Translations under genes and position numbers: made by a program
In this document: positions 43,613-54,524 of the stretch, piece by piece
Position numbering within the stretch: position 1 is the stretch's first letter
How the letters are laid out: every line of letters starts with the position of its first letter
Source: Mycolicibacterium gadium
GTDB taxonomy: Bacteria; Actinomycetota; Actinomycetes; Mycobacteriales; Mycobacteriaceae
Assembly (NCBI RefSeq): GCF_010728925.1
Contig: NZ_AP022608.1
Coordinates: 5,828,001 to 5,892,000, forward strand
Direction: 5' to 3'
DNA: 64,000 bases
The notes under the pieces: model-generated
Database searches by the model: none
Seen by the model: only the letters and a program-made list of their open reading frames with translations
Told to the model about the DNA's origin: nothing

Positions 43613-43623
43613 AGATGATCCCG

Positions 43624-45237
43624 CTATCCGACGGTGAAAAACATCGATTGCCAGCCGGTCGACCCGTCGGGCACCGGTCCGGGGTTGATCAGGCGAAGCC
43701 GGTCCTCTGCCTGCATCACCCCTGACCCATCGAACGCGCGAGACGTCACGGTGTGTTGGCCCGGCGCCAGTGGCCTGGTCAGTCGGAACATCCGCCAGGT
43801 GTTGCGGTTGACTTCGGTGGCCAGCTCGGCCGGCTGCCACTCTTCGTTGTCGAAGCGTAGTTCGACCTTGCTGATTCCGCGCCCCTGCGCCCAGGCGGTG
43901 CCCGCCACGGTCACGTCGCCGCTCGGCACCCGCTGAAACGAGCTGGGGGCGTCGATGCGCGACGAGATCTTGATCGGCACGACGCCAGGTGGTTGGCCGT
44001 CCCAGCCTCGTTCCACCCAATAGGGCTTGATGTTGTAGGTAGCCAGTTCAAGTTCGGTGAGCCATTTCGTCGCCGATACGTAGCCGTACAAGCCGGGAAC
44101 CACGGTCCGCATCGGAAATCCGTGTTCAGGCAGCAGCGCCTCCCGGTTCATGCCGATCGCGAGCAGCGCTTCTTTGCCGGCGTTTCGGAGCAGGTCCAGC
44201 GGTGTGCCTAGCGTGAAGCCGTCTACCGAATGGCCGACCACCTGCTGAGCGCCGTCCTGTATTCCCGCCTGATCGAGCAGGTCCAGCAAAGGCACACCGA
44301 TGAAGTTCGCCGTCGAAACATAGGGCCCGCCAACCTCATTGGAGACGCAGGTCATCGTGATTGTCTTTTCCACCAACGGCATCGAGCGGATTTCGTCGAA
44401 GGTGAACTCGACGGGCGTGTCGACCATCCCGGTTATACGCAGCACGGCGTCCTCGGCCCGCAGTTGGGGCACCGTCAGGTTGATGTCGATTCGGTAGAAG
44501 TCCGCGGCGGGCGTGATGAACGTTGGTGTTCCCAGCTTGGGGAACGCGGCACCGGCCGGTATCGGCGGAGCAGGCGTCGTCGGGACAAGTTCGCCGACGG
44601 CGCGTCGCGACGCCGTGACGTCGATCCGTTTCCCGAGGGCGAATCCGCCTGCACCAGCGACCAGCGCACCCAGCGCCGCGGCAAGCGAGCTCAGCACGAA
44701 TCGACGCCGGCCCAGTCCGCGGGTGGGAACGTCATCGGCAGCTTCGCCCGCTCCTGCGTCAGCGTCGTGGATCGCATCGACGGGCCGGGGTTGCGCGCGC
44801 CGATGCAACCACCAGAACGCTCCCACCCCGGCCAACAGCGATGCCAGCGGTGCCAGCAGCCCAAGCCACCCGGTGGACTGCTCGGCCACGGCCAACGTAC
44901 CGACGACACCGAGGAAGACGATCGCGGCCAGGCCGGGTACCACGCTGCGGCGCGACATCAGCCCGAGCAGGACTCCGAACAGGACGAGCGCGACCGCCAT
45001 GCCCACCAGCAGCGCCGGCTTGTCATTGGTGCCGAAGTGCGTGATTGCGAAGTCCTTGACCGCCGCGGGGGTTCGGTCGATCGCCGCGTTGCCCACCGCG
45101 AGAAACGGTGACGCGGCGGGCGTCAGGATCAGTCCCGAGATGAGATGGCCGACGCCGAGGGCGGCGAACACCGCGATCAGGCCGGTGAGCGCGGCGCGGA
45201 CGGCGGGCAGGCGAGACGTCGGCGTCATACGACTCAT
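43624..45237 (-). CDS. Membrane-anchored molybdopterin-dependent oxidoreductase (sulfite oxidase/YedY family)
   Basis: A 537-residue protein; ATG 45237 chosen, ATG 45228 possible. The N terminus holds about four transmembrane helices (residues 10-165). A Tat-like twin-Arg stretch GRRRFVLSSLAAALGALVAG then leads into a periplasmic oxidoreductase domain. The Mo-ligand Cys is in ITMTCVSNEVGG; the domain continues with VVPGLYGYVSATKWL and a C-terminal dimerisation domain (VELRFDNEEWQPAEL, RAFDGSG). Substrate and electron acceptor are unknown; protein methionine sulfoxide or sulfite are family possibilities. It is divergent from rpiB. Confidence 0.87.
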   Translation of the reverse strand: MSRMTPTSRLPAVRAALTGLIAVFAALGVGHLISGLILTPAASPFLAVGNAAIDRTPAAVKDFAITHFGTNDKPALLVGMAVALVLFGVLLGLMSRRSVVPGLAAIVFLGVVGTLAVAEQSTGWLGLLAPLASLLAGVGAFWWLHRRAQPRPVDAIHDADAGAGEAADDVPTRGLGRRRFVLSSLAAALGALVAGAGGFALGKRIDVTASRRAVGELVPTTPAPPIPAGAAFPKLGTPTFITPAADFYRIDINLTVPQLRAEDAVLRITGMVDTPVEFTFDEIRSMPLVEKTITMTCVSNEVGGPYVSTANFIGVPLLDLLDQAGIQDGAQQVVGHSVDGFTLGTPLDLLRNAGKEALLAIGMNREALLPEHGFPMRTVVPGLYGYVSATKWLTELELATYNIKPYWVERGWDGQPPGVVPIKISSRIDAPSSFQRVPSGDVTVAGTAWAQGRGISKVELRFDNEEWQPAELATEVNRNTWRMFRLTRPLAPGQHTVTSRAFDGSGVMQAEDRLRLINPGPVPDGSTGWQSMFFTVG

Positions 45238-45325
45238 TCGTTGCCGAAGCGGTTCGGGATTGCCGCCGACGTGACTCAAAGCTGACGTCGGGCTCGCGAG
45301 GGGCGGGTTGGGCCGCTCTGCCAGA

Positions 45326-45814
45326 ATGGCCGTCATGCGCGTCTACCTGGGAGCCGACCATGCGGGCTTCGAGTTCAAGCAGCGGATCATCGAGCACCTC
45401 AACGCCAATGGGCACGAGCCCGTCGACTGCGGGGCGTACGCGTATGACGCCGACGACGACTACCCGGCGTTCTGCATCGCGGCCGCGGCGAAGACGGTCG
45501 CCGACCCGGGTAGCCTTGGCATCGTGCTCGGCGGCTCGGGCAACGGCGAGCAGATCGCCGCGAACAAGGTGCCCGGGGTGCGGTGTGCGTTGGGGTGGAG
45601 CGTCGAGACGGCCAAACTCGCGCGCGAGCACAACAACGCGCAGGTGATCGGCATCGGCGGGCGCATGCACACGGAAGAGGAGATGCTCGCGATCGTCGAT
45701 GCGTTCCTCACCACGCCGTGGTCGAAAGCCGAACGGCATCAACGTCGTATCGACATCCTCTCCGAGTACGAGCTCACCCACGTCGCGCCGCCCGTGCCCG
45801 GCGCGCCGAGCTAG
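45326..45814 (+). CDS. rpiB: Ribose-5-phosphate isomerase B
   Basis: A 162-residue RpiB/LacAB-family enzyme interconverting ribose-5-phosphate and ribulose-5-phosphate. Conserved: MRVYLGADHAGFEFK, CGAYAYDADDDYP, VLGGSGNGEQIAANK with the anion-binding glycines, and REHNNAQVIGIGGRMH. ATG 45326 gives the 162 residues I recall for Rv2465c; ATG 45335 is the alternative. The next gene, a DNA glycosylase, begins 3 bases after its stop. Confidence 0.94.
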   Translation: MAVMRVYLGADHAGFEFKQRIIEHLNANGHEPVDCGAYAYDADDDYPAFCIAAAAKTVADPGSLGIVLGGSGNGEQIAANKVPGVRCALGWSVETAKLAREHNNAQVIGIGGRMHTEEEMLAIVDAFLTTPWSKAERHQRRIDILSEYELTHVAPPVPGAPS

Positions 45815-48712: not shown

Positions 48713-49981
48713 GTGGTTCAAGAGTTCGAGTGTGAGGCCATGTCAGCCGAAGTCGTCCGTGACGGCTTCGTGCTCGCTCCCGAGGTCGAAGATGCCCGGA
48801 TGCGCTCTGTCGAGCAGCTGCACTTGCTGGGCTCAGAACCCGAAGAGCGATTTTCCCGCATCACCCGGATGGCGCGACAGGTGTTCGGTGTGCCGATGGC
48901 CGCGGTGTCGCTAGTCGATCGCGAGTGCCAGTGGTTCAAACAGAACGACGGTCTTGACCTGGCAGGCACGGTACCCCGGGAGCAGACCATCTGTCGGGCG
49001 ACCATCGCACGCGTGTACATGAACGTCGATGAACCGGCCCTGATCATCGAGGATGCGCGCCAGGAGCCGGATTTCTGCGAGTTGCCCGCGATCAAGGCCG
49101 AAGGCGGTGTCCGGTTCTACGCCGGCTACCCACTGTTCGGCCCCGGCGGTCACCCTGTCGGCACGTTCTGCATCTACGACACCGAACCGCGCTCGCTCGA
49201 CAGCGAGCAGGTGGAGACGTTTCGCGAGTTGGCAGGTTGGGTTCAGCGGGAACTGGAACGGTTCGACGAGATGGATCGTGCAACACAGGTGCAAAGTCAT
49301 CTGCTGCCGCGACCCCTCGGCGATCTGCCGGGCTACACGATGTGCGCCTTGTGTTTACCCGCCTTCGCGGTCGGCGGCGACTTCTACGACCATTACAGCT
49401 CGCAGCGCGGTGTGATCTTCACCGTCGCCGACGTGATGGGCAAGGGACTCGGCGCGGCGATCCTGACCGCCAGCGTGCGGTCAGCCCTTCGCGCGGCGTC
49501 GCGGGCGGTCGACGAATTGGATCACGGTGCCGACCTCGCCGACGCCGTGAACTCCGTTTCGGCGCAACTGTCCGACGATCTCACCAGCACCGAAACCTTC
49601 GTCACGCTGTTTCACGCGCGACTGGATACCGCCACGGGGGCAGTGCGCTACGTCGACGCCGGACATGGTCTCGCCGTAATAGTGCGTAAAACCGGTGTCG
49701 TCGAGCGGTTGTCGAGCGAGGGTCTGCCGCTCGGGGTGCTGGACGACGAGAAGTGGATATCGCACGACGTGATGTTGGAAGACGGAGAAACGCTTGTCAT
49801 CGCGTCCGACGGCGTGCTGGATCTGATCGGTGACGGCGCCGACGTCCGTCCGGCGTTGAAACTCGTCGCCCAATACCCCGATCCCGTCGAACTGTGCTCT
49901 CGAGCCCGTGCGCTCGCCGAGGCGGGCGCCGCACTCGACGACGTCACCCTGGTCGCAATCCAGAAGACGCCCGCCGATTAA
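48713..49981 (+). CDS. GAF-SpoIIE (PP2C-type) serine/threonine phosphatase
   Basis: A 422-residue RsbU-like protein. A GAF domain (about residues 30-190: FSRITRMARQVFGVPMAAVS, GYPLFGPGGHPVGTFCIYD) is followed by a linker helix and a SpoIIE phosphatase domain with the metal-binding motifs FAVGGDFYDHY, VADVMGKGLGAAI, YVDAGHG and LVIASDGVLDLIG. Such proteins dephosphorylate anti-sigma-factor antagonists in response to a signal sensed by GAF. GTG 48713 has GGGGGA ahead; ATG 48740 is the alternative. No partner kinase or antagonist is encoded nearby. Confidence 0.88.
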   Translation: MVQEFECEAMSAEVVRDGFVLAPEVEDARMRSVEQLHLLGSEPEERFSRITRMARQVFGVPMAAVSLVDRECQWFKQNDGLDLAGTVPREQTICRATIARVYMNVDEPALIIEDARQEPDFCELPAIKAEGGVRFYAGYPLFGPGGHPVGTFCIYDTEPRSLDSEQVETFRELAGWVQRELERFDEMDRATQVQSHLLPRPLGDLPGYTMCALCLPAFAVGGDFYDHYSSQRGVIFTVADVMGKGLGAAILTASVRSALRAASRAVDELDHGADLADAVNSVSAQLSDDLTSTETFVTLFHARLDTATGAVRYVDAGHGLAVIVRKTGVVERLSSEGLPLGVLDDEKWISHDVMLEDGETLVIASDGVLDLIGDGADVRPALKLVAQYPDPVELCSRARALAEAGAALDDVTLVAIQKTPAD

Positions 49982-50036
49982 AGGACATGAGCGTCGTCAC
50001 GACGTTTGGTAGCCCCGCTTATCGGAGCCGACCGTC

Positions 50037-50405
50037 CTAGGTGCTGTCTGCTCCCGCAACGTCCTGCCCGATCTGCTCGGCTTCGGCCGCCATCCGTTCC
50101 GCCTCGCTCGCTTGCGGATTGGTGGCCTCCGTATTTCCGCCCGGCGCGTCGCACTCTGCACCGGTGACCCCCGGGGGACACACTCCGGCGCTGGCGCCGG
50201 TAGCGGCCGTTGTGCGGGTATTCGGCGTCATGAACGGAACACACGTCGTGGTAAAAGAATCCGGCTCCTCGCCGCCGTTGCACTGCGCAAGGTAGGCGGG
50301 GAGATCGGTGGCTGAGGCGCCGATGACGCCGATCGGAGCGACGATCGCCAACGCAAAGCCCCCGGCGGTCATCAGTCGGTGAGCAAGTACCCGCAGAGCC
50401 CGCAT
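50037..50405 (-). CDS. Small exported Thr/Ala-rich protein
   Basis: A 122-residue protein from ATG 50405. The signal sequence (MTAGGFALAIVAPIGVIGAS with a basic n-region) precedes a mature domain with four Cys (AQCNGG, TTTCVP, AGVCPPG, AECDAPG) that could make two disulphides. The C-terminal 30 residues are Glu/Ala-rich helix (ERMAAEAEQIGQ). It resembles small secreted mycobacterial proteins but has no named family that I recognise. It is divergent from the repeat-protein operon across a 1.2-kb non-coding stretch. Confidence 0.65.
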   Translation of the reverse strand: MRALRVLAHRLMTAGGFALAIVAPIGVIGASATDLPAYLAQCNGGEEPDSFTTTCVPFMTPNTRTTAATGASAGVCPPGVTGAECDAPGGNTEATNPQASEAERMAAEAEQIGQDVAGADST

Positions 50406-50716
50406 ATTTCGTCACCTTCCCCCGCGCGTCACTGATGAATGACGACTGTAGGCCGCGCGACATGGCCGCCACATGCTTTACCGATTCCACCGTTTGGTTT
50501 GTCGTTTCGGTGCGTTCTGAATCCCGGTCGCGGCAGAAGCCCATGATGCCCGACATGCGCGCACATCCGAGTGACCCGCCGCCCGCCGGGTGCTCGGCCG
50601 CGTTGCCATAGGCGGTGTCGGAGCGCGCGTGGTGCAGCCGATTATCACGGTCAAATTGGGCCAACTCCATAATCGTTGATTTCAACGTCCGTTACACGCG
50701 CGATAAACGTCGAGAA

Positions 50717-50730
50717 ATTATTCGAATAAT
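50717..50730. promoter_or_regulatory. Perfect 14-bp palindrome in the AT-rich island (first)
   Basis: ATTATTCGAATAAT is exactly self-complementary. Such AT-rich palindromes in GC-rich DNA are candidate binding sites for a dimeric regulator or for Lsr2-type silencing. No regulator gene adjoins it. Confidence 0.4.
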
Positions 50731-50797
50731 GGCGATCGACCCATTTCATATCTGTTTCGAATTGTTGCGACAGGAAGGACCTCGCCAACATGTTTTA

Positions 50798-50811
50798 ATT
50801 TACGCGTAAAT
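50798..50811. promoter_or_regulatory. Perfect 14-bp palindrome in the AT-rich island (second)
   Basis: ATTTACGCGTAAAT is exactly self-complementary and lies 67 bases after the first palindrome. The two differ in sequence, so they may bind different proteins. They lie midway between the divergent exported-protein gene and the repeat-protein operon. Confidence 0.4.
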
Positions 50812-51305
50812 AAGTCAGCAAATCGTTTCTTCATTCGCTTGAGGAGGTCAATAGCATTTTTGGCGCTCGTCTGACTGCGATGGCAACCCCGGCGAGGGGG
50901 CGGTCGCGTTCGCTTCCCGGACAGGAGGGGTTGTCAACACCGCCCAAACCTAGGCTTCCAAGCTGCTGAGCAACCATTCTTATTTTGGGATCCTTCGTCA
51001 TCTGGCATTGCTCGGCGGCCGCTGCCGAACACTGCGGATTCGTGCTCGGAAGGCTCCGCAGCCGACGAGCGCTCGGCCATTATTCGGATTCTGCGACTTC
51101 GCGCCACTCGACTGAGGGCGGTGGTCATGAGAGCACGGATGAACAGGCAATCCCTCCCGTCGCAGCCCACACCAGCAAGCCGGCGTCAGCAGTCCAACAC
51201 TGGACTATGTGACAACGAGATCCGTCGCCCGACCGGCGGTGGCAGCCCGATCACCGCGTCGGACAGGTGACCTTCAGGTTCGCTCAGAATTCCGGTCTGT
51301 GATGC

Positions 51306-51335
51306 TTGACACACCCTCCAGCAAAGGAATATGTT
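51306..51335 (+). promoter_or_regulatory. SigA-type promoter of the repeat-protein operon
   Basis: TTGACA at 51306-51311 is a perfect -35; TATGTT at 51330-51335 is a fair -10 after an 18-base spacer. Transcription would begin near 51342, leaving about 230 bases of untranslated leader before ATG 51575. Confidence 0.6.
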
Positions 51336-51340
51336 CTCCC

Positions 51341-51439
51341 CAGTTCTCCGAACTGAGTGGGGTCGGTGGGGAAAGGGGGAGTGGCTTAGGACAGGACCAA
51401 ACGCGTGCGGTTCGGTAGGCGCCCGGTTAGGCGCCTTTC
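51341..51439 (+). promoter_or_regulatory. Structured leader with two hairpins
   Basis: CAGTTC-TCC-GAACTG (51341-51355) sits at the predicted transcript start, flanked by CCC and GGGG that extend the stem. AGGCGCC-CGGTTA-GGCGCCT (51417-51436) is a perfect 7-bp stem followed by TT. A transcript leader this long and folded suggests control of RNA stability, translation or early termination. Confidence 0.4.
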
Positions 51440-51574
51440 GAGATACAACCGGATGCTGCGGTGAAAACACCGGAATCACCCTGTTGTGCGCCATTCATTC
51501 ATAGCTGCCGTTCGGCGGAATTTCTCCGTGGACGGCTAGTTTCAATCTGCTCAAAAACAGCAAAGGAGCGCAAT

Positions 51575-52084
51575 ATGAGCAAGCACAGGACGCCAAGTCG
51601 GAGGTCTCCGCTGACTCGCACATTCGGTGCGGGAATCGTGACAAGCGGCCTCGCCTTAGGGGCGATCGGCCTTCTCGCTCCGGCCACGGCAAGTGCCGAT
51701 GTTTCGGTCGGCGGGCAGAGCGACAGCCCGGGTGCTGCCGGTGGCACCATGGGCGGATCAACCGCGTCGAACAACACGTTCACCAGCGGTGTCGGAAGCA
51801 TCACTACCGTCAACCAGACGAACGGCAACTACACCGGCGGCGACGGAAACACCTCCGTCCACATCCCGGTCACGGTCGGCGGCCCCAACATCCCGAGCTT
51901 CCGGTGGGGCGGCCAACGCAACAGCCCGGGTGCGGCGGGCGGCACCATGGGCGGGTCCTCAGGGTCCGGCAACACGGTCAACTTCCGAGGGTCCTTCACG
52001 CAAGTCATTCAAAGCAATCGCAACTTCCAGGGTGGCACCGGCAACACGTCGGTCCACATTCCGATCAAACTCGGCCTTCCGTGA
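51575..52084 (+). CDS. Exported repeat protein A (two Gly/Asn-rich modules)
   Basis: A 169-residue protein; AAAGGAG precedes ATG 51575. The 41-residue signal peptide (TRTFGAGIVTSGLALGAIGL, cleaved after ASA) is homologous to that of the seven-module protein at 52659. The whole mature protein is two modules, residues 43-108 and 109-169. Each begins x-x-x-GGQ-x-x-SPGAAGG and ends GG-x-GNTSVHIP. The first module has TTVNQTNGNYTGG between, the second FTQVIQSNRNFQGG. No enzyme motif is present. The Asn/Gln/Thr spacing suggests stacked beta strands, so a surface fibre, adhesin or wall protein is inferred. Confidence 0.82.
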   Translation: MSKHRTPSRRSPLTRTFGAGIVTSGLALGAIGLLAPATASADVSVGGQSDSPGAAGGTMGGSTASNNTFTSGVGSITTVNQTNGNYTGGDGNTSVHIPVTVGGPNIPSFRWGGQRNSPGAAGGTMGGSSGSGNTVNFRGSFTQVIQSNRNFQGGTGNTSVHIPIKLGLP

Positions 52085-52122
52085 TCGAGGGTTGAGGCCG
52101 AGATCGCTCGGGCTCAACCAAC

Positions 52123-52169
52123 AGGACACGCTGAACCGTCGTTTCACGACGGCGGTTCAGCGTTGTCCT
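52123..52169 (+). terminator. Long hairpin between repeat-protein genes A and B
   Basis: AGGACA-CGCTGAACCG-TCGT pairs with the later copy across a TTC loop, giving a stem of about 20 bp with a few bulged bases. There is no T-tract. It may act as a partial terminator or an RNA-processing barrier, letting gene A be expressed more than genes B and C, or it may protect the upstream mRNA. Confidence 0.5.
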
Positions 52170-52194
52170 CGCTCGGAGTGAAAGGAAAACAACC

Positions 52195-52575
52195 ATGAGC
52201 AAGCCGGAGAAAGCGCGCATGCGAACGACGCTCGGTTGGTCGGCGTGCTTCGGCTTCGCCGTATTGGGGGGCGCTGCCGCCTGGGCCGGGTTCGCCGACG
52301 GGCAGCAGGATTGGCAGCCGACCGATCTTCGTGCCGACGGGGTGCAGATCGGCGGCCAGAACAACAGCCCGGGTGCCGCCGGGGGCAACATCGGTACTCC
52401 GACCAATGACGGCAACTACCGCGGAGGCGACAACAACACCGTCGTGACCGTGGGCGAAGAGCTACCAATCTGGTTGTCGCCGCTCTTCGATACACAGCGA
52501 AACAGCCCGGGGGCCGCCACTGGCGAGAACACCCAAGGCGGAAGCGGCAACGTCGTCATCAACCTCGGCGGCTAG
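52195..52575 (+). CDS. Exported repeat protein B (degenerate modules)
   Basis: A 126-residue protein from ATG 52195, with AAAGGAAAAC ahead. The N terminus has a basic region and a hydrophobic stretch (GWSACFGFAVLGGAAAWAGF) that is a signal peptide or anchor. The mature part has one recognisable module start, VQIGGQNNSPGAAGGNIG (from residue 50), a shortened YRGGDNNTVVTVG segment, then a second partial copy TQRNSPGAATGENTQGGSGN. The signal sequence differs from those of proteins A and C. It is probably part of the same assembly, perhaps a cap or anchor. Function unknown. Confidence 0.75.
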   Translation: MSKPEKARMRTTLGWSACFGFAVLGGAAAWAGFADGQQDWQPTDLRADGVQIGGQNNSPGAAGGNIGTPTNDGNYRGGDNNTVVTVGEELPIWLSPLFDTQRNSPGAATGENTQGGSGNVVINLGG

Positions 52576-52658
52576 CTACCGCCGCGCCACAAACCCAACA
52601 CTCGTCGACCCGCTTCAGCGACCCGCTTTAGTGGCTATCTCGTCAGGAGAACATCAGA

Positions 52659-54107
52659 ATGGCCGATCACCGGATGCCGTGCCACCGGAAGCCGCTGAAT
52701 CACACCTTCGGCGTCGGTATCATCGCCGGCAGCCTAACGCTAAGCGGCGCAGGCCTTTTGCTCCCGGCAACCGCGAACGCCGATGTTCAGGTAGGTGGCG
52801 AGGCCGACAGTCCCGGCGCCGCAGGCGGCAATCACACCGCGGTCAACATCTCGAACAACACCTACGTCATCGGCCGCAGCAACACCACGAATGTCAATCA
52901 GACCAACCAGAATTCGGTGGGCGGCAACGGAAACACCGCCAGCGGGCGGGTGATCCGCATACCGGACGTCCAGGTCGGCGGGCAGAAGGACAGCCCAGGC
53001 GCCTCAGGCGGCAGAAAGACGATGCTCCGGGTGTCGAACAACACGATCGTCGTGGCCCGCAACAACAACACGACGGTCAATCAAGCCAACGAGAACGACA
53101 CGGGCGGCAGCGGTAACAGCTCGACCAGTGGAGGCAGCAGCAGCGGCGGAGCGATGCAGGTCGGTGGGCAGAGCACCAGCCCCGGTGCCGCGGGCGGCAA
53201 CACCACCGGACTCGACATTTCCAACAACACATACGTGGTTGGGCGGGACAACACGACCAATGTCAATCAGTTCAACCAGAACTCGATCGGCGGAAGCGGC
53301 AACACCGTCAACCCGGGCGGGGGCGGCGGCGGCGACTCTGCTCAGTTGGGCGGCCAGAGCAACAGCCCGGGGGCCGCAGGTGGCAACAAGACCGGACTCA
53401 GCTTCTCCAACAACACGTTCGTCGCCGGCCGCGGAAACACCACGACGGTCAATCAGTTCAACCAGAACTCCGTCGGCGGCAGCGGCAACACCGTCGCGCC
53501 GGGCGGAGACTCCGGCAGCACGGCGCAGTGGGGCGGGCAGAACAACAGCCCAGGCGCCGCGGGCGGCAACAGGATCGGCGCCAATCTCTCCAACAACACC
53601 TTCGTCGTCGGCAGTGGCAACGCCACCCAGGTCACCCAGGTCAACCAGAACTCCATTGCCGGCAGCGGCAACACTGTCGGTCCTGCAGGCGCCCCGAACA
53701 ACCCACTGTTGGCGCCCATCCAGATCGCGGGTCAGAACAACAGCCCCGGTGCCGCAGGCGGCGACAAAATCGGCCTGAATTTCGCCAACAACACCTACGT
53801 CGTCGGCCAGAACAACGCGACCCAGGTCACGCAGACCAACCAGAACTACATCGGTGGCGACACCAACGCCGTGAACATTCTGCCCGGCGTCGTCACCGGC
53901 AACGCTCCATGGATGATCCCAGTTCGCTGGGGCGGACAGCAGAACAGCCCCGGCGCGGCAGGCGGAAACATCGGCGGGGGCATCGCCAACAACACGTTCG
54001 AGTTCGGCCGCGGGAACATCACCCAGGTCACCCAGAACAACCAGAACATCGAGGGCGGCAGCAACAACTACGCCGGACCGCCGATACCAATTCCTCTGCA
54101 GCCGTAG
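52659..54107 (+). CDS. Exported repeat protein C (seven tandem modules)
   Basis: A 482-residue protein; CAGGAGAACATCAG leads to ATG 52659. Signal peptide residues 1-41 end at ANA. Residues 43-482 are seven tandem modules of 61-68 residues, with almost nothing else. Each module reads roughly: three residues, GGQ-x-x-SPGAAGGN, about five residues, SNNT-F/Y-VVGR, NTT, VNQ-x-NQNS-x-GGSGNT, then a variable linker. The regular Asn and Gln ladders recall curlin and other amyloid or beta-solenoid repeats, though the sequence is not a curlin repeat. Surface fibre or adhesin is an inference; PE_PGRS was excluded because no PE domain is present. Confidence 0.82.
   Translation: MADHRMPCHRKPLNHTFGVGIIAGSLTLSGAGLLLPATANADVQVGGEADSPGAAGGNHTAVNISNNTYVIGRSNTTNVNQTNQNSVGGNGNTASGRVIRIPDVQVGGQKDSPGASGGRKTMLRVSNNTIVVARNNNTTVNQANENDTGGSGNSSTSGGSSSGGAMQVGGQSTSPGAAGGNTTGLDISNNTYVVGRDNTTNVNQFNQNSIGGSGNTVNPGGGGGGDSAQLGGQSNSPGAAGGNKTGLSFSNNTFVAGRGNTTTVNQFNQNSVGGSGNTVAPGGDSGSTAQWGGQNNSPGAAGGNRIGANLSNNTFVVGSGNATQVTQVNQNSIAGSGNTVGPAGAPNNPLLAPIQIAGQNNSPGAAGGDKIGLNFANNTYVVGQNNATQVTQTNQNYIGGDTNAVNILPGVVTGNAPWMIPVRWGGQQNSPGAAGGNIGGGIANNTFEFGRGNITQVTQNNQNIEGGSNNYAGPPIPIPLQP
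52785..54104 (+). repeat. Seven tandem coding modules in repeat protein C
   Basis: Module boundaries by nucleotide: 52785-52967, 52968-53153, 53154-53339, 53340-53522, 53523-53717, 53718-53921 and 53922-54104. They were set at the residue three before GGQ/AGQ/GGE. Modules 3 and 4 are closest to each other; module 2 is the most diverged (VARNNNTTVNQANENDTGG). The linkers between modules differ, being Gly-rich after modules 3 and 4 and Pro-rich after 5 and 6. Confidence 0.85.
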
Positions 54108-54450
54108 GGAGTTGGCGCGTCGCTAGGCGTCTGGCCAGTTCGAACTCCACCGGTAGACCGTCGCTCCGTCGGGCAAATAGAGATCCGGCGGATTTCAACG
54201 GCGGAGCAAGGGTCGACCATGGCGCTTGACCGTGATCCGCCACCGAGCATGATCGAGCGGCGGCTGGGCTAAAACGAGCAGTACTTGGTGGTGGGACTCA
54301 TCGTGGCGTCAGGAGGCGCGATCGGCGCCCAGTTCGCTTCTGCCGTCGTGTTCGTGGTCGGAACCATGGGATTCATCGAGATAGCGGCGCAGCGGCCAGG
54401 GCGCGAAAAGCGCGCGCGACCAGCGGCAACGCCACTACCACCAGTTTTGT
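54108..54450. other. Intergenic region between repeat protein C and tRNA-Gly
   Basis: A 343-base stretch. On the minus strand a 23-codon open stretch (54126-54194) ending at TAG 54123-54125 reads like a protein C terminus (LYLPDGATVYRW, then SSNWPDA) but has no start and a stop just upstream, so it may be a gene remnant. On the plus strand a membrane-like frame from 54285 runs into the antisense tRNA and is not supported. Confidence 0.5.
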
Positions 54451-54524
54451 TGGAGCGGGCGACGGGAATCGAACCCGCGTAGCTAGTTTGGAAGACTAGG
54501 GCTCTACCATTGAGCTACGCCCGC
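54451..54524 (-). tRNA. tRNA-Gly (anticodon TCC)
   Basis: Minus-strand cloverleaf: acceptor GCGGGCG pairs with CGCCCGC, the anticodon loop is CTTCCAA with anticodon TCC, and the T arm has GGTTCGATTCC. The body is 54454-54524 (71 bases) and the CCA end is encoded at 54451-54453. Confidence 0.95.

Follow-up and report, generated by a model that had tools for sequence, protein, structure and literature searches.

A three-gene operon of exported Gly/Asn/Gln-rich repeat proteins beside a tRNA-Gly gene of Mycolicibacterium gadium, possibly encoding the building blocks of an extracellular fibre or matrix

The stretch of DNA analysed here (the window) comprises 64,000 nucleotides of the M. gadium genome (contig NZ_AP022608.1, positions 5,828,001 to 5,892,000) and contains three genes, A, B, and C, which are arranged head to tail on the + strand and have open reading frames (ORFs) without interruptions. 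Gene A (51575-52084, +) codes for a protein of 169 amino acids (aa) consisting of a signal peptide and two copies of a repeat module (51701-51898 and 51899-52081), gene B (52195-52575, +; 126 aa) for a hydrophobic N-terminus and two truncated modules devoid of the arch described below, and gene C (52659-54107, +; 482 aa) for a signal peptide followed by seven modules (52785-54104). As judged by eye, a Shine-Dalgarno-like stretch precedes each of the genes, and we infer that they are co-transcribed. The signal peptides of A and C are homologous (55% identity over this stretch), comprise 41 residues ending at A41, and are followed in both proteins by modules beginning at V43. The first-pass annotation had already proposed three linked genes for exported proteins sharing one module, with homologous 41-residue signal peptides and a module start at residue 43 in A and C, and the sequence agrees with these predictions. 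Charged residues are few (6.2% in A, 6.8% in C), Asn and Gln together account for 14.8% of A and 23.6% of C, and Cys is absent from all three proteins; inspection of A and C by eye revealed no LPXTG motif, lipobox, or C-terminal membrane segment. The third-position GC content of the operon (0.78-0.85) falls within the range of the eight neighbouring genes examined (0.75-0.91), so the composition gives no sign of a foreign origin.

A view on the repeat structure shows that the module is 61-68 residues long, with its SPGA turns spaced by 61, 62, 62, 61, 65, and 68 residues in C and by 66 in A. In the best 40-residue self-match of C, 32 residues are identical, against at most 17 in 100 shuffles, and in that of A 19, against at most 14, but the 8 identities in B lie inside the shuffle range (maximum 11), so the two modules assigned to B rest on their likeness to A and C. 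By profile, B matches module positions 1-19 (E 7.7e-5), shares the string QRNSPGAA with A, and retains the GGQNNSPGAAGG turn and the GG-N end; it also contains a DNA repeat copy at 52351-52423 (63% identity). The module counts of two in A and seven in C therefore stand, whereas the two copies previously counted in B are partial and lack the module middle. Sixteen columns are invariant across the nine full modules. The SPGAAGG turn is not among the strictly invariant features, as had been proposed, being present in 8 of the 9 full modules, with SPGASGG in module C2 and SPGAATG in the second copy of B. Ratios of nonsynonymous to synonymous divergence (dN/dS) between modules are 0.24-0.71 in 31 of the 36 pairs and 0.85-1.03 in the other 5, all of which involve C2, A1, or A2. 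Together with dS values of 0.44-1.14, these mostly low ratios indicate an old module array that has been selected as protein: judged from the sequences, the divergence of the modules is ancient and took place for the most part under purifying selection, and a recent tandem expansion is ruled out by the dS values.

Upstream of gene A, a promoter block (51297-51331, +) is 86% identical by blastn to a block preceding a different gene, P0004, in a sister genome (G145), and a pattern derived from both copies, with 3 mismatches allowed, matched 2 of 198 genomes, namely the window genome and G145. The block contains a CRP-like site, TGTGATGCTTGACACA (51298-51313, +), which reads TGTGA-N6-ACACA and agrees in 9 of 10 bases with TGTGA-N6-TCACA, the CRP consensus given for mycobacteria and E. 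coli in passages of two publications (PMC7739888, PMC4117774). The pattern TGTGA-N6-WCACA, which was picked after the site had been seen, has its sole window match here (0.08 expected; present in 6 of 100 shuffled sequences), and the site also occurs in G145. Control of the operon by cyclic AMP and CRP (cAMP-CRP) is therefore probable. The block overlaps with promoter-like hexamers, TTGACA-18-TATGTT (51306-51335, +), which form one of 2 such sites found against 0.6 expected and the second of which is not conserved in G145, and these hexamers are followed by a leader of 239 nt (51336-51574, +). The promoter and long leader of the first-pass annotation are thus recovered; its operon start at 50406 is not, as no part of the operon was recognised in 50406-51296. 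The leader folds better than shuffled sequences (z -4.54), but its counterpart in G145 does not (z +0.78), leaving a conserved leader structure unsupported. A much stronger structure is present between A and B, where a hairpin of 21 pairs with one bulge and no U run (52123-52169, +) lies in a 110-nt gap of folding z -7.84, a stability reached by none of 200 shuffles, whereas no hairpin was found in the gap between B and C (z -0.02). Such hairpins in other operons raise the first transcript over later ones, and by analogy A is probably the abundant product of this operon.

In searches for relatives, A, B, and C did not match any Pfam or NCBIfam family above the cut-off, any PHROG at E values up to 1, or any PDB sequence below E 0.1, which is in line with the earlier reading, in which the operon was not recognised as a described mycobacterial system. 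Within its own genome, the operon is the sole place with the module. The searches of other genomes scored a limited number of candidates in sampled groups. With C as query, 2 of 248 congeneric genomes were matched, the own one and one with a spurious match (L005), which by eye lies antisense to an aminotransferase-like ORF. A profile of the nine modules gave matches in 4 of 396 congeneric genomes and in 23 of 296 from the class; with the own genome set aside, these are 3 and 22 weak matches. All 25 were translated and none is a repeat protein of the module kind, 20 of the 22 at class level being, by eye, one HAMP-repeat-like protein. Across both genome sets, a credible module is therefore confined to the own genome, and no characterised family emerged. 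Scanning with short peptide patterns, twice across 84,980 species genomes and three times across viral contigs, may leave out near-identical records; it returned pattern matches and no confirmed relative, and nothing was found in phages or plasmids. No description of the module was found in the titles and abstracts of the literature searched, the string SPGAAGG was found in none of the papers searched, and, as far as these sequence searches reach, no described mycobacterial system appears to match the operon.

The signal peptide is more widespread than the module, as its profile matched 27 of 198 genomes, 25 of them besides the own genome and G145. Translation of the 27 loci yielded one exported transglycosylase-like protein in 14 cases, the loci L115, L116, and L130 in 3, and other proteins in 10; a further 8 matches lacked a locus, of which 5 were fetched, 1 was read as L096, and 2 were left unopened. 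From residue 13 onward, the A/C signal peptide resembles that of the transglycosylase-like protein (L103-L112, L114, L117, L127, L129), which is RpfE-like and whose gene is located on the tig contig in several genomes. A leader of the MAKHRK/MGKHTK kind is also present, with weak matches (E 7e-4 to 6e-3), on exported proteins of other mycobacteria (L142-L148), comprising a 230-aa low-complexity chain rich in Gly, Thr, Ser, and Asn (L142, gene start 9705, - strand) and a non-repetitive family of 183-196 aa from six genomes (L143, L144, L145-L148). A broader leader class may exist.

The operon is flanked by a GAF-SpoIIE phosphatase gene (48713-49981, +) and a small divergent exported ORF (50037-50405, -) on one side, and by genes for tRNA-Gly(tcc) (54451-54524, -) and tRNA-Pro, tig, and clp genes on the other. 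Among 395 genomes scored, the two best, G213 and G145, show 96% identity from tRNA-Gly to tig, and none of the matches listed covers the operon. The identity with G145 amounts to 93-96% in the left flank and 95.8% in the right one; it stops at 49973, within the phosphatase gene, and resumes at 54451, at the tRNA-Gly gene, which gives the edges of a swapped stretch, and the 4.1 kb between differ. In this slot, G145 carries P0004 (L085:3705-4250, 181 aa), an Asn-rich exported protein with two copies of another repeat. Over 35 residues, its signal peptide shows 54% identity with the one of C, and the starts of C and P0004 share 70% identity. Because this value and the 86% of the promoter block lie far below the identity of the flanks, replacement of the slot contents by a diverged allele seems likelier than ordinary change. 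The repeat of P0004 was found in 1 of 196 genomes, G145 itself, and its homology to the module is unsupported (hhalign probability 0.9%), so that the N-termini alone are clearly homologous. Judging from the sister locus, surface proteins of this sort may turn over rapidly behind a promoter and leader that are retained, and this would account for their escaping searches based on families.

In place of the 50037-50405 ORF, G145 carries a further exported Asn-rich protein, P0005 (L085:5311-5721, +), with SGNNISVQ-SGPNNTNVQ-like runs, a Cys-rich end, and no family match. The 50037-50405 ORF itself belongs to a multi-copy family with matches (E values up to 1) in each of the 12 genomes searched and several copies per genome, some of them in tandem (e.g., G000:C1:3686762-3687904). 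A screen for Asn-rich low-charge ORFs in the slots of the relatives and eight other stretches returned P0004 and P0005 in G145, C in the window, and nothing else, although it missed A, whose ORF was read from an upstream start. In six further relatives, the aligned flanks are separated by about 140 bp (L088) or 60 bp (L091), or enclose other ORFs, some of them exported as judged by eye (L086, L087, L090), or a gene that by eye is P450-like (L089). A separate difference lies outside the slot: a gene for a molybdopterin protein that resembles sulfite dehydrogenase and carries a Big_7 domain (43624-45336, -) falls in a region (43620-45304) that none of the aligned blocks includes in any of the seven relatives covering it (L085-L091) and therefore looks like a single-gene gain in the window genome.

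In G213, a tyrosine-integrase fragment is encoded beside tRNA-Gly (L084:2461-2955, -) and reaches the contig end, and DNA of G145 at L085:2325-2620 is 80% identical to it, so that the tRNA-Gly gene looks like an integration hotspot. These traces, the very narrow distribution of the module, and the different slot contents of all relatives compared would fit a view of the operon as lineage-specific cargo of the hotspot, swapped between species and serving no fixed role, be it antigenic variation, phage-surface interplay, or near-neutral turnover. However, the purifying selection between modules and the promoter block and signal peptide common with the sister allele argue otherwise, and the window slot shows no sign of an element, as by eye no integrase was recognised in 49982-54450 and no repeat of the tRNA end of at least 13 bases occurs elsewhere in the window. 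Delivery of the operon by an integrase element is accordingly not shown, and we regard the cargo explanation as rather unlikely.

With respect to function, the sequence features suggest that the operon supplies exported structural subunits for a fibre or matrix outside the cell, a reading to which we assign a probability of roughly 0.4. According to passages of PMC10192328, curlin strands follow the pattern N-$-Psi-$-Psi-$-Q, are linked by X-G-X-X, and form repeats of 23 +/- 5 residues. A motif of the form [NS]-x-Psi-x-Psi-x-Q (motif b) is present at columns 33-39 of all nine full modules, once per module and in a single register, which was matched by 50 of 20,000 column permutations; an X-G-X-X arc precedes it in 7 of the 9 (56 of 20,000 permutations), and the invariant residues T35, V37, Q39, N41, and N43 alternate (407 of 20,000). 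The reading is further favoured by the low charge, the Asn and Gln content and the lack of Cys, the purifying selection between modules, the signal peptides, the hairpin behind A, and the CRP-like site. Under it, the subunits would be exported by the Sec pathway and cleaved after A41, and each full module would fold as a strand-arc-strand unit, with a first strand of about S-N-N-T-[YF]-V-V-G, a short arc, and a second strand of N-x-T-x-V-x-Q-x-N-x-N. Thr, Val, Gln, and Asn side chains at equivalent positions could then stack as ladders between modules and subunits, the GGQ-x-NSPGAAGG and GG-x-GN segments serving as linkers. A would represent the abundant short subunit, C a long scaffold or a nucleator, and B, in which the linkers are retained but the arch is missing, an adaptor or cap. 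Every full module would contribute one curlin-like arch to a stack running through modules and subunits, and this arch would have evolved independently of the curlins.

Several observations weigh against this reading. The motif tests were picked after looking at the modules, and several were tried; with a strict N, motif b is found in 7 of the 9 modules and is a weaker form (324 of 20,000 permutations). A repeat profile of E. coli CsgA/CsgB settles on this register as well, though at a non-significant level (204 of 2,000), hhalign of the module profile and BLASTP against curlins are negative, and motif b is absent from P0004 and P0005 of the sister locus. None of the neighbours scanned was recognised as a gene for secretion or assembly, and csgG, csgE, and csgF were not found among these (10 proteins plus 5 window proteins, the whole genome not having been searched). 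Asn/Gly-rich chains can equally be disordered. The operon may instead encode repeat proteins that are secreted or loosely attached to the wall and stay unpolymerised, such as a chain binding a ligand, polysaccharide, ice, or metal, or a flexible surface shield, as would suit the multi-module C with its Gly-rich linkers, the low charge, and the signal peptides. This alternative is conceivable, if on the unlikely side, because it leaves unaccounted for the strict Thr/Val/Gln/Asn alternation, the one curlin-type motif per module, and the distribution of modules over three linked genes with a dosage-type hairpin. As to the self-assembling fibre or adhesin layout proposed initially, the beta-arch-like motif and the alternating conserved residues fit self-assembly, and fibre formation, adhesion, surface location, and the assignment of major, minor, and anchor parts are putative. 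More doubtful than the fibre reading itself is its extension to a swappable fibre slot, in which a CRP-type promoter block and a signal-peptide start beside tRNA-Gly would be combined in close relatives with self-assembling repeat proteins of the Asn-ladder type that are either unrelated or diverged to an extreme degree. The version described here would have re-invented the beta-arch of the curlins, with a single arch in each 61-residue module, although it lies outside the curli family and lacks export genes of the curli kind.

The operon represents a compact candidate for a mycobacterial protein fibre built without a curli-type export machine, and an amyloid matrix whose proteins are still to be identified is described for M. 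tuberculosis biofilm in passages of a 2026 preprint (PMC13251970). Compared with known systems, it resembles curli CsgA/CsgB in its exported Gly/Asn/Gln-rich tandem repeats and in the order of motif b and the preceding X-G-X-X arc, the latter being what one would expect of a genuine curlin that has diverged to an extreme degree. However, the modules have a period of 61-68 residues, far above that of the curlins, with one motif b each, and motif a is degenerate, lacking N and Q, with mostly hydrophobic or small residues at column 22 and most often V at column 28. No curlin family was found for A, B, or C at E values up to 10 in Pfam and NCBIfam, although the HMMER filters may drop weak matches. 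The profile tests, including the negative hhalign comparison, the repeat length, and the degenerate motif a rule out curlin membership by these measures and render a hidden one highly improbable. The chaplins and rodlins of streptomycetes are likewise exported surface proteins of Actinobacteria that are small, rich in Asn, and capable of self-assembly, and chaplins contain a conserved Cys pair, whereas A, B, and C have no Cys in their mature parts and no chaplin family match at E values up to 10 (Pfam); nor was a PE/PPE N-terminal domain matched in Pfam at this threshold. The MTP curli pili of M. tuberculosis (Rv3312A), a mycobacterial surface adhesin termed curli-like in the literature, consist of one small protein that is not known to contain such modules. 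The closest counterpart is P0004 of G145, which shares the slot, the promoter block, a homologous signal peptide, and an Asn-rich two-copy repeat, but this repeat has no detectable homology to the module. By the tests made, the operon belongs to neither the curlins nor the chaplins, and it may work like the matrix proteins of either type.

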